From: Morganella psychrotolerans
GTDB taxonomy: Bacteria; Pseudomonadota; Gammaproteobacteria; Enterobacterales; Enterobacteriaceae
Direction of reading: 5' to 3'
DNA: 64,000 nt
Assembly: GCF_001676055.1 (NCBI RefSeq)
Contig: NZ_LZEX01000046.1
Location: 1 to 64,000 of the forward strand
The notes under the pieces are model-generated. The model saw nothing but the letters and a program-made list of their open reading frames with translations, was not told where the DNA came from and did not search any database. Below are positions 15,157 through 42,159 of the stretch, in pieces (the stretch's first letter is position 1; every line of letters begins with the position of its first letter). A program made the translations under genes and the position numbers.

Positions 15157-15282
15157 TATACCCTTATTCATTCAAACTGCAGGTGTGTTGGCTGCGCTCA
15201 GCTTGCCGGGTCACATACTGATGTATGCTCCCCGGCAATCGGAGCTTGCCGCCTTCCTGCATCTTGAATGACGTTGGGTATA
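15157..15282 (+). repeat. ERIC-type intergenic palindromic repeat, full length
   Basis: A 126-bp imperfect palindrome running from TATACCC to GGGTATA with the ERIC-like blocks GTTGGCTGCGCTCA and CTTGCCGCCTTCCTGCA. Almost the same sequence occurs at 41297-41423. It lies between the NTF2-like gene and the mgtE leader. Confidence 0.85.
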
Positions 15283-15387
15283 TTTAGTTAAATGCTTTTT
15301 AGTTAAATGCTTTCTAAACGAAAGTGGTTTAATCCTCGCCATATAATTTACGGGAGTTATAATTCGCACCGCATTTAAGGTGCAGTA

Positions 15388-15550
15388 TCTCGTTAGGCGA
15401 GGCTCCTATACAAACAGAGGTTGCTGATCTGACGACGTCGCGAGACGCCCAAGATTAGGACAGGTTATATCGAATGAAGGTATAACCCGAAGTAACTTCC
15501 TGCAAATTACGCAGGATACGTTGTATAGTGCTAAAACCGAGACGTGAGAT
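15388..15550 (+). ncRNA. M-box (ykoK) magnesium riboswitch
   Basis: The leader of mgtE holds the conserved M-box blocks in order: CGTTAGGCGAGGCTCCTATA at the 5' end, a variable middle with several pairing segments, and the 3' block TAGTGCTAAAACCGAG, corresponding to the conserved CAGUGCUAAAGCUC. A TATAAT at 15358-15363 would start transcription just upstream. M-box RNAs fold on binding magnesium and turn off magnesium transporters. No classical terminator with a T tract follows, so control may act on translation or through Rho. Confidence 0.85.
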
Positions 15551-15630
15551 AGCCTACGCATTCTCTCATCTGGTTTCGCCCCTATTGGAGTGCTGTTTGA
15601 AGTTCATAACAGACATTAGGGTCACACATC

Positions 15631-24267: not shown

Positions 24268-24330
24268 TATACCCTTATTCATTCAAACAGCAGGTTTGTT
24301 GGCTGCATCCTGAATGACGTTGGGTATATA
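24268..24330 (+). repeat. Internally deleted ERIC element upstream of the amidase gene
   Basis: A 63-bp version with both ERIC ends (TATACCCTTATTCATTCAAAC and TGAATGACGTTGGGTATATA) but no central palindrome. It ends 17 bases before the amidase start codon, directly at its ribosome binding site. Confidence 0.75.
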
Positions 24331-25410: not shown

Positions 25411-25527
25411 TATACCCTTATTCATTCAAACTACAGGTTCGTTGGCCGCACTCAGCCCGCCGGGTCACATACTCCCCGGCGGTCGGAGCTTGCCGCCTGC
25501 CTGCAATCTGAATAGTGTTGGGTATAT
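25411..25527 (+). repeat. ERIC-type element between budC and the LysR gene
   Basis: A roughly 117-bp member of the repeat family, starting TATACCCTTATTCATTCAAAC immediately after the budC terminator and ending GTTGGGTATA. It is slightly shortened in the central hairpin. Confidence 0.8.
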
Positions 25528-32197: not shown

Positions 32198-32326
32198 TAT
32201 ACCCTTATTCATTCAAACCGCAGGTTCGTTGGCTGCGGTCAGTCAGCCGGGTCACATAGTTTATCTATGCTCCCCGTCTGGCTTTCCTTGCCGCCTTCCT
32301 GCAACTTGAATGACGTTGGGTATATA
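32198..32326 (+). repeat. Full-length ERIC element abutting the next start codon
   Basis: About 129 bp from TATACCC to GGGTATATA with the central palindrome intact. Its last base is part of, or directly before, the ATG at 32326. Confidence 0.85.
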
Positions 32327-39502: not shown

Positions 39503-41167
39503 TTAACTCTCCGGCGGGATAAACCAGGCTGATTTAAAATCAAACCAGCCAAAGGTGTTCATTTTGACACCGCGCATACTGCGTTGTCCCTGTAACTCCA
39601 GCCAGTGATGGAACAGCGGGTAAAGCATCTGTTCATCCACCATCTTTTCACACCACTGTGCCAGTGACAGTGTGTTCTGACGCCACTGTTTCAGCGGCGT
39701 GCGCAAATCATCAGCCAGACAGTGGTGCAGCAGAGGAAGTTCATAAAGGGTGGCAAAGATGGAAAATTCCAGCGGTTTATAGAAGTTGGCGGTGGCAAGC
39801 CAGAAATCACTCTCACTGTTGCCGTGAAACCAGGTGTCGTAATCAGTGATAACAATGTGCAGAGTGACGCCGTACTCAGCCAGCAGTTTTTGCAGTAACT
39901 TGCCGATTGCATGGTATTCATGGTGATCGTGATAATAAGTCAGTGTCAGTTCGGTGAGATCCGCCGGTTTTTCACAGGGTGCGATCAGTTTGCTGTGATG
40001 CCAGCGCAGCAGCAGACCGTATGCGGGTCGCCAGTGGCGCTGATAGAGCGGGTCGCAATGATACAGCAGATTGACGGGTGTCATCAGGCTGTTGAGCCAG
40101 CAGCGGATATCTTCCCGTTTTCCTTTCTCTGAACGTTTGTCATGAAGGAGAAAGTAACAGCCCTCTTCCATGCGGCTGTCGAGGGAATCGCTCTGCGTTC
40201 TGTCGTTGCCGATGTGCAGCGTGGTGCAGATCATTTTCTCTTCCAGTTCCGGCACGACGATGACAGACACTTCATCCAGAAGCGCGCGGTAGCCATAATA
40301 ATGGTCAAAGGCACGGATAGTCAGTTTTTTGTCATTATTACAGACGACCTGATAAGGTCCTGTACCGACCGGGTGGCGGGAAAAATCCGGCAGTTCCTGC
40401 CATTCATGCGGCAGGATAGCGGCATGCGGGCTGCCGGTGAGTACCGGAAACCACTGATCTTCATCACTCAGCGTGATATCAATGATATGAGGGCTATCTG
40501 AGCGGACCGTCCGGATATGGCTGAAGAGCGGATGCCGGTCTCGCAGGCGTTCAAAGGAGGAGATAATATCCACCATCTGCAATTCCCGCCCGTGGTGGAA
40601 AAAGACCGCAGGGCGCAGCCAGAAACGCCATTGTTTATCGCCGATTTGTTGCCAGTGATGCGCCAGCGCAGGAATAACTTCCCCGTTTTCCTCATTTATG
40701 GCGGTCAGACCATTAAAAATCTGGCTGAGCAGATGCACTTCCGAGCGGCGCAGCGGCGAGCCGGGCAGTAAATTATAAAACGGCCGGTAATAGACAATGC
40801 GCAGCAGACTTTTTCCCTGCCGGAAGCTGCGTTCTAACTGAGACAACACCATTTGGCGCATGGCATCCTTGTCATTGACCATCTCAACCAGTTTTTCGAT
40901 ATTATCCTGTTCAATCAATAGTTCGGCGCGGGCGTGCTGTAACTCACGTCCGCTTTGCAGAAAGCTGAGATGTGAGCGCTTACCCCGTCCTGCTTCCGCC
41001 TGCCAGTGAAGCCAGCCTGCGCTCTGCATATTATTGAGCAGTGAGCGGACATGGCGGCGTGAGCAGTGCAGGATCGCAGCAAGTTCCTGAAGGGTGATGT
41101 CGGTATTTTGTCCCTGATGGTGTTGCCACAGGCGGATGAATTGATATTGCAGGCGGGGTGTGCTCAT
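39503..41167 (-). CDS. sgrR: Glucose-phosphate stress regulator SgrR
   Basis: A 554-residue protein like the 551-residue E. coli SgrR. An N-terminal winged helix (LQYQFIRLWQHH..., LAAILHCSRRHVRSLLNNMQ) is followed by an SBP_bac_5-type solute-binding domain (SGAGPY-like HPVGTGPYQV, YYHDHHEYHAIGKLLQKLL) and the conserved tail GQRSMRGVKMNTFGWFDFKSAW. It senses sugar-phosphate stress and activates transcription of the divergent small RNA SgrS. A region like sgrS is found directly upstream on the other strand. Confidence 0.95.
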   Translation of the reverse strand: MSTPRLQYQFIRLWQHHQGQNTDITLQELAAILHCSRRHVRSLLNNMQSAGWLHWQAEAGRGKRSHLSFLQSGRELQHARAELLIEQDNIEKLVEMVNDKDAMRQMVLSQLERSFRQGKSLLRIVYYRPFYNLLPGSPLRRSEVHLLSQIFNGLTAINEENGEVIPALAHHWQQIGDKQWRFWLRPAVFFHHGRELQMVDIISSFERLRDRHPLFSHIRTVRSDSPHIIDITLSDEDQWFPVLTGSPHAAILPHEWQELPDFSRHPVGTGPYQVVCNNDKKLTIRAFDHYYGYRALLDEVSVIVVPELEEKMICTTLHIGNDRTQSDSLDSRMEEGCYFLLHDKRSEKGKREDIRCWLNSLMTPVNLLYHCDPLYQRHWRPAYGLLLRWHHSKLIAPCEKPADLTELTLTYYHDHHEYHAIGKLLQKLLAEYGVTLHIVITDYDTWFHGNSESDFWLATANFYKPLEFSIFATLYELPLLHHCLADDLRTPLKQWRQNTLSLAQWCEKMVDEQMLYPLFHHWLELQGQRSMRGVKMNTFGWFDFKSAWFIPPES

Positions 41168-41239
41168 AAAAGGGGAACTCCGGGTTTTTTTTCATCCATT
41201 TATATTTCCTTATATTAGATCCATACTTCTTATCATTAA

Positions 41240-41455
41240 AGCAGCTCATGATGTCAGTGTGATACCTGACTCACTCCCTTATTCTTGAGTAATGGTTATA
41301 CCCTTATTCATTCAAACTGCAGGTGTGTTGGCTGCGCTCAGCTTGCCGGGTCACATACTGATGTATGCTCCCCGGCAATCGGAGCTTGCCGCCTTCCTGC
41401 ATCTTGAATGACGTCGGGTATATATTAACCGCCAGCCGTAAGGCTGGTTTTTTTT
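41240..41455 (+). ncRNA. sgrS: sgrS-like small RNA interrupted by an ERIC element
   Basis: Divergent from sgrR, as in E. coli. GAGTAATGGT (41287-41296 region) and ACCGCCAGC plus the terminator GGCTGGTTTTTTTT (to 41455) match the E. coli SgrS end as I recall it (GAGTATTGGT...ACCCGCCAGC...GCTGGTTTTTTTT). Between them sits a complete ERIC at 41297-41423. Removing it leaves GGTTA-TAT-TAACC, a five-bp hairpin at the place of the E. coli GGTG...CACC hairpin. Upstream AGTGTGATACCTGA could pair with a ptsG-type UCAGGAGCACU site. The 5' end is a guess; no sgrT frame is seen. Confidence 0.65.
41297..41423 (+). repeat. Full-length ERIC element inside sgrS
   Basis: A 127-bp element nearly identical to the copy at 15157-15282, with TATACCC and GGGTATA ends and TA dinucleotides at the borders as expected for insertion at TA. 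Confidence 0.85.
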
Positions 41456-41556: not shown

Positions 41557-42159
41557 TTAACGCAAGAACTCAGGTTGCTGTGATTCAAAACGGGAAATCA
41601 TACTGTCGTGTTGCAAGGTCAGCCCGATGCTGTCCAGTCCGTTCATCATGCAGTGGCGGCGGAAAGTATCCACAGAGAACGGATAGGCTTTGCCGTTGGC
41701 AAAAACCGTCTCTTTTTCCAGATCAACGGTTATTTCTGCGCCTTCTGTAGACTGCACCCAGGCAAACAGTTCATTTATTGCGGCTTCAGGTAATTTTACC
41801 GGCAACAATTGGTTGTTAAATGAATTGCCGTAAAAGATATCGGCAAAGCTTGGTGCTATCACGACGTTGAAGCCGTAATCGGTTAACGCCCACGGCGCGT
41901 GCTCACGGGAAGAGCCGCAGCCGAAATTTTCCCGTGCCAGCAAAATCGATGCGCCCTGATAACGCGGAAAATTAAGGACAAAATCCGGGTTTGGTATTTG
42001 TCCGTCATCATCGAGAAAACGCCAGTCATTAAACAAATGCTGCCCGAACCCTGTGCGGGTGACTTTTTGCAGAAATTGTTTAGGGATGATGGCATCCGTA
42101 TCCACATTTGCCGTATCCAGCGGGGCGACAATGCCCCGGTGTACAATAAATTTTTCCAT
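41557..42159 (-). CDS. leuD: 3-isopropylmalate dehydratase small subunit
   Basis: A 200-residue aconitase-swivel domain protein ([44 protein letters not shown]). With LeuC it isomerises 2-isopropylmalate to 3-isopropylmalate. It is the last gene of the leu operon, 14 bases after leuC. Confidence 0.97.

Follow-up and report, generated by a model that had tools for sequence, protein, structure and literature searches.

Divergent from sgrR in the window (the whole stretch of 64,000 nucleotides analysed here) lies a putative small RNA of the SgrS type, with a complete ERIC-type repeat inserted into the loop of the penultimate hairpin. Read directly on the plus strand, the order is GAGTAATGGT, 127 bp (41297-41423), ATTAACC, the terminator stem GCCAGCC-GTAA-GGCTGGT, and a T run. 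The locus consists of the following parts:

39503..41167, minus strand: sgrR, an intact frame of 554 amino acids divergent from the small RNA (NCBIfam NF010149, 899.8 bits; cut-off 476 bits)
41222..41227, plus strand: CATACT, a tentative -10 element of the small RNA promoter, the same in 6/6 Morganella
41232..41455, plus strand: putative SgrS-type small RNA including the ERIC, from conservation blocks, folds, and an SgrS model of other genera applied to relatives with an empty site
41262..41278, plus strand: AUACCUGACUCACUCCC, predicted nagE-pairing site (16 pairs with the nagE start region in 6/6 genomes)
41285..41295, plus strand: UUGAGUAAUGG, ancestral SgrS seed, identical in 6/6 Morganella and aligned with the core of 43 SgrS 3' ends
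41294..41298, plus strand: GGTTA, 5' arm of the penultimate hairpin, from the alignment with empty-site relatives
41297..41423, plus strand: ERIC-type repeat in the hairpin loop (148.7 bits; net gain about 124 nt; absent in 4/6 genomes)
41426..41430, plus strand: TAACC, 3' arm of the penultimate hairpin, from the alignment with relatives and from folds
41431..41455, plus strand: intrinsic terminator (7-bp stem and T run), from terminator prediction, aligned in 6/6 Morganella
41557-42159, strand opposite to the small RNA: leuD-like frame beyond the terminator, named by eye

A first-pass annotation of the window had called sgrR intact, and its frame is indeed unbroken. The small RNA appears to start near 41232. 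From about this position to 41296 the six Morganella genomes are nearly identical, and the spacer past the terminator has diverged. The output of a consensus promoter scan did not contain CATACT at 41222-41227; it gave 41189-41216 instead, with a count that equalled the chance expectation.

A profile of eight other copies, which excluded both sgrS copies, matched the repeat at 41297-41423 over its full length (148.7 bits, E 3.8e-45), as expected from the earlier claim of a complete 127-bp element between the hairpin arms. With a ten-copy profile that included them (five copies from the window's genome, the sgrS copy among them, and five from the genome G004), the score was 149.6 bits. We take the repeat to be an ERIC; it is about 127 bp long, self-complementary and present in many copies per genome. 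With 40 of 334 candidates scored, a 393-base query gave at least 55 matches in the window's genome, most of which fall in the query's ERIC portion, and relatives in E. coli show 72% identity across the whole length. Four long copies lie on the plus strand of the window. The first-pass annotation had further stated that excision of the ERIC leaves a perfect small hairpin. A hairpin is left, but exact removal of 41297-41423 yields 10 nt, not 13; the 13-nt GGTTATATTAACC, which has the length of the hairpin in relatives, is obtained by removing 124 nt. Because TATATA lies at its edge, the boundary of the ERIC is ambiguous.

Other full or partial copies in the window are found at 292-400, 24268-24329, 25411-25527, and 32198-32324. 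One more, at 15157-15283, precedes an M-box (magnesium) riboswitch (15382-15555) by about 100 bp. It is 99% identical to the sgrS copy, which is 91% identical to its orthologue in G004; ERIC copies may thus have been gene-converted by one another. In G004, an ERIC also lies directly upstream of a malX-like PTS gene (L086 1318-1443; 134.2 bits), and the malX-like region of the five other Morganella genomes has none by eye. On the minus strand of the stretch, opposite to the small RNA, the Rfam families Ysr49 and V_AS5 scored 14.6 and 26.3 bits (cut-offs 95 and 96). The V_AS5 match is confined to the ERIC and that of Ysr49 runs from the ERIC into part of the flank, which hints at ERIC-like sequence in annotated sRNAs.

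All six Morganella genomes of the sample were searched for the locus. The ERIC sits at the same point in two of them, the window's genome and G004 (M. psychrotolerans DSM 17886). The other four carry the hairpin uninterrupted, as GGTGACTTTTACC or GGTGACTGTTACC (13 nt); among the five genomes other than the window's, these four read GAGTAATGGTGACTTTTACC or ...GACTGTTACC at the empty site, with no interruption. Comparison of the locus in other Morganella, proposed in the first-pass annotation, therefore yielded natural empty hairpins in four genomes and conserved sequence on both sides of the insertion. The interrupted hairpin is also the one that had been named, since the arms GGTTA and TAACC flank the ERIC directly before the terminator of the sgrS-like gene. 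The fourth arm pair is U-A in the ERIC carriers (GGTTA/TAACC) and G-U in the empty relatives, so that both sides have changed. A single insertion, in a common ancestor of the two ERIC-bearing Morganella species, is the simplest account.

Whether the RNA is an SgrS was assessed with covariance models. The Rfam model RF00534 (cut-off 37 bits) remained below threshold with and without the ERIC, natural empty sites included, and this check from the first-pass annotation failed. The same model also misses other SgrS genes linked to sgrR (G019, 36.8 bits; G030, 31.6 bits; G027, 29.8 bits). Our own model was built from 43 distinct SgrS 3' ends, none of which came from Morganella or from the genera of G166, G119, and G156. 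These three genera are called related here because their SgrR is 64-70% identical to that of the window, the closest listed outside the genus (a ranking by identity, not by tree). The hairpin-plus-terminator structure of the 43 sequences covaries more than shuffled controls do: seven pairs have changed on both sides (1/500 shuffles as high; covariation score 0/500), although six of the seven lie in the terminator. The model gave 31.7, 31.7, 31.7, and 29.3 bits for the four empty Morganella sites (E 1.2e-4 to 3.2e-5, from a rough calibration) and 43.5, 44.8, and 37.4 bits for G166, G119, and G156. The two ERIC-bearing loci scored 15.1 and 14.7 bits, over the 3' half only and within the noise; the best unrelated match in the window, with 13.6 bits, was scarcely lower. 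The contrast predicted between the sequence with and without the ERIC was hence observed with the 43-sequence model rather than with that of Rfam.

Other features of the locus point in the same direction. Upstream of sgrR, the signature changes stepwise in other genera from CTGAGTATTGGTG...CACC to CTGAGTAATGGTG...CACC and TTGAGTAATGGTGATTTTACC (G156), and then to the Morganella form. The core aligned to the seed UUGAGUAAUGG is of the type CUGAG(U/A)A(U/A)UGG in the 43 SgrS 3' ends, and the pairing core reads TTGAGTAATGG in 6/6 Morganella versus CTGAGTATTGG in E. coli-type sequences. The gene is adjacent to and divergent from sgrR, and a hairpin, interrupted by the ERIC in 2/6 genomes, is followed by an intrinsic terminator with a long T run. 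No sgrT reading frame was found. The empty form of the RNA is about 96 nt long including the pairing and 3' regions, which leaves no room for a frame of about 40 codons. A review describes sgrT as not universal and as absent in Yersinia (PMC4021124).

With E. coli SgrS (RF00534), the Morganella RNA shares the divergent position next to sgrR, a TGAGTAWTGG-type seed, the GGT...ACC hairpin, and a GCCAGC-type terminator with U tail. It differs in its length (about 96 nt without the insert, taking the start as placed above), the lack of sgrT, a score below the Rfam cut-off, the ERIC in the hairpin loop, the predicted pairing with nagE, and a lineage without PtsG. An unrelated small RNA, or a leader or terminator remnant beside sgrR, would account for the sub-threshold Rfam score even without the ERIC and for the lack of a PtsG over the cut-off to regulate. 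Such an origin is highly improbable, however, given that a covariance model from other genera matches the empty sites, that graded intermediates lie beside sgrR in related genera, and that position and orientation are those of SgrS. The sgrS-like identity proposed at first pass is thus supported by the adjacency to sgrR, the intermediates, and a model free of Morganella sequences. These data support the view that the Morganella RNA is a divergent, short, sgrT-less SgrS, a homologue rather than a canonical SgrS. We class it as divergent because there is no PtsG above the cut-off for it to pair with, and pairing with nagE is predicted instead.

PtsG (NF008301) was above the cut-off in 0/12 genomes of Morganella and the three related genera, and TIGR02002 in 0/6 Morganella; PtsG was detected in G006, G019, and 1/14 control genomes. 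NagE, on the other hand, was above the cut-off in 12/12 genomes of Morganella and the three related genera. The start region of nagE, GGGAGTGAGTGGGTAT, spans the ribosome-binding site and the likely GTG start. In 6/6 Morganella, it forms 16 pairs (one U-G) with AUACCUGACUCACUCCC, with one bulged G, at -25.4 kcal/mol. As a background, the best of 38 window genes reached -16.7 kcal/mol, and 0/1000 mononucleotide shuffles were as good (best -23.2). When a wider region and dinucleotide shuffles were used, shuffles as good numbered 0/300 in four Morganella, 2/300 in the window's genome, and 27/300 in G004, where the pairing is not special. The same test gave 3/300 each for G119 and G166, which have their own differing sequences on both sides, and 268/300 for the related genus G156, which lends the pairing no support; it covered genomes with an SgrS sequence available for pairing, which did not include G231, G260, and G327. 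We relied on energies because the longest perfect complement alone is weak: one of the 38 window genes also reached 10 nt. On these grounds, nagE is predicted to be a new target of the Morganella RNA.

Sequences complementary to the ancestral seed (14 bases, at most two mismatches) occurred in the six Morganella genomes about as often as matches to a reversed-pattern control. Six of the matching loci (four different matches) were read. They look like coding DNA by eye, no frame of more than 60 codons starts within 40 nt downstream, and a target of the ancestral seed was not found among them. In 12 start regions of malX-/nagE-type genes, the longest exact seed complement was 7 nt. A comparable case in function is VcdRP of Vibrio cholerae. 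As described in PMC8672173, this CRP-controlled small RNA represses nagE through a run of C, four in number, that pairs with the translation starts of PTS transporter mRNAs, nagE included. Among the literature titles listed, none dealt with a link between SgrS and nagE or with an ERIC insertion in SgrS, although a title search does not prove either of them unpublished.

To judge the effect of the insertion, forms with and without the ERIC were compared. The stretch folds better than 200/200 shuffles (z -6.4), much of this signal being due to the ERIC's own self-pairing. The predicted GGU/ACC pairing across the ERIC has a probability of about 0.85; in the empty forms, it is 0.98 in three and 0.53 in G005. 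The predicted mean accessibility of the nagE site is 0.53-0.58 with versus 0.52-0.62 without the ERIC, and that of the seed 0.36-0.37 versus 0.36-0.39. Both forms are predicted to retain the terminator and the helix that surrounds the pairing region. Between the two carriers, 2/97 sites changed in the RNA's own parts (two single-base gaps uncounted) and 12/127 in the ERIC (Fisher p 0.026), a contrast that is weak and based on few sites, given 5/103 changed columns in the nearby spacer and 4/64 in the leader, as well as the possible gene conversion between ERIC copies. At fourfold sites of sgrR, 38/223 differ.

The penultimate hairpin was surveyed in the upstream regions of 83 genomes (79 of 95 with an SgrR match, 16 weak or fragment matches being left out, plus four Morganella). 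In 62 of the 83, a seed with a terminator after it could be recognised; the other 21 may carry SgrS forms missed by the motif. The distance from seed to terminator stem was 12-18 nt, corresponding to a plain hairpin, in 51/62 genomes. It was 27-28 nt, with a short hairpin added, in four (G122, G074, G071, and G070), 76 nt in two (G090 and G006), and 138 nt in the two Morganella ERIC carriers. In three (G103, G014, and G170) it was 1 nt: the hairpin is lost and the seed abuts the terminator upstream of sgrR. The hairpin insert of G090 (L110) is a long palindrome present in a single copy in its genome. Gapped pattern searches of 392 genomes gave more short hairpin extensions among the matches listed, e.g., in G380, a further genus; many matches look like chance, and none was used unless it ended in a hairpin and GCCAG. 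A candidate third lineage with an ERIC in SgrS, Photorhabdus, was rejected: no sgrS-type terminator follows the match, and the neighbouring frame is by eye a pyruvate kinase, not sgrR. In another genus (G024, L035 1376-1499; 65.1 bits), a full ERIC lies right after the SgrS terminator.

A seed search of the genus of G006, Klebsiella, with one genome per species, showed that the loop of the penultimate hairpin is likewise occupied by an insert in 20/20 genomes; five of the sequences are identical to the records of K. grimontii, K. spallanzanii, K. pneumoniae, K. oxytoca, and K. michiganensis. In 7/20, the whole length of the insert is matched by the ERIC profile (E 7e-19 to 1.4e-16) and is oriented as it is in Morganella. 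The remaining 13 gave weak partial matches (E 0.0019 to 2.9); their position and ends suggest that they descend from the same ERIC. Unlike the Morganella RNA, Klebsiella SgrS belongs to a separate lineage, carries the insert in all 20 genomes, and has a long 5' part (Rfam match from position 1), with PtsG present in G006. In the type strain K. pneumoniae ATCC 13883, SgrS scores 156.4 bits with Rfam over 411 nt. According to a review (PMC4021124, citing papers of 2009 and 2011), K. pneumoniae SgrS regulates ptsG and manX; the RNA reported as functional presumably held the insert. Two separate insertions are the simplest account, because most of the surveyed genera have a plain hairpin. Since Klebsiella acquired its insert in this loop separately, this spot in SgrS seems able to take in mobile DNA.

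The seed, outer hairpin arms, and terminator pairs are invariant in the 20 Klebsiella rows, and so is the insert's 3' arm GAGTAT, while the interior varies widely in length and sequence. Of the cells in the two insert helices, 95% and 87% are paired, yet the insert stem did not covary above controls in the 20 rows. The presence of the insert in all 20 genomes with an invariant 3' arm, together with the short extensions in four other genera and the long single-copy palindrome of G090 at the same place, would fit a domesticated insert, whose added stem is beneficial (through stability, Hfq or ProQ binding, or control of processing) and not merely tolerated. Set against the variable interior, the missing covariation signal, and the loss of the whole hairpin in three surveyed genera, we regard domestication as distinctly unlikely.

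The first-pass annotation had left open whether the ERIC spares or breaks the function of the RNA. Breakage or weakening could come about if RNase III cut the long duplex, or if the duplex exposed an RNase E site, and the Hfq-binding 3' end thereby lost its link to the pairing region; the response would then be lost or reduced in the two species while sgrR persists. According to a review, an RNase E site makes Yersinia transcripts that contain an ERIC less stable. In addition, nagE is in split frames in the window's genome (a change of frame within the IIB part, L250, contig 12, which is a real lesion or an assembly error), and the circuit could be decaying there. However, nagE is one open frame in the other carrier G004, the sgrR frame is intact, and the seed, nagE site, and terminator are kept in both carriers. 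Moreover, an insert occupies this position in all 20 Klebsiella species, and a working RNA has been reported for K. pneumoniae. We therefore consider a broken SgrS unlikely and favour spared function, on the basis of the retained pairing regions and terminator, the predicted GGU/ACC pairing, and the Klebsiella inserts.

Our preferred reading, which we hold to be probable on sequence evidence, is that a working, short, sgrT-less SgrS, chiefly aimed at nagE, tolerates the ERIC as an extension of a stem. The palindrome would have entered the loop of the penultimate hairpin at a TA. Because the ERIC folds on itself, it would lengthen the stem and leave the upstream pairing regions and the downstream terminator and U tail unaltered. 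The RNA would be made once SgrR senses sugar-phosphate stress, and Hfq would bind it via the two 3' hairpins and the U tail. The RNA's chief partner in this lineage without PtsG would be nagE, the mRNA of a PTS transporter: pairing with its start codon and ribosome-binding site would stop translation. The stem-loop upstream of the SgrS terminator is described as important for Hfq binding (PMC4021124), and a longer terminator stem as shortening the U tail and impairing Hfq binding (PMC5558911). This U-tail problem should not arise in Morganella, as the insert extends the other hairpin and not the terminator.

A broader interpretation is possible, though we rate it somewhat below an even chance: the penultimate hairpin of SgrS would be a recurrent, tolerant entry site for mobile and self-pairing DNA. 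Morganella and the Klebsiella ancestor would each have acquired an ERIC there independently, the latter's being kept throughout the genus in a working RNA, and the Morganella RNA would have been re-aimed from ptsG to nagE. If this is true, a mobile element has been built into a regulatory RNA, and the main target of that RNA has been switched. At the Morganella locus, natural empty sites make for a clean example of a mobile palindrome within the 3' hairpin module of a regulatory RNA that has been studied well; a second, separate case is found in every Klebsiella species examined. With two cases and natural empty sites, the limits to hairpin growth in sRNAs that keep their function and the shaping of regulatory RNAs by mobile repeats become directly testable. 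The predicted pairing with nagE would explain what role SgrS has in bacteria without PtsG.
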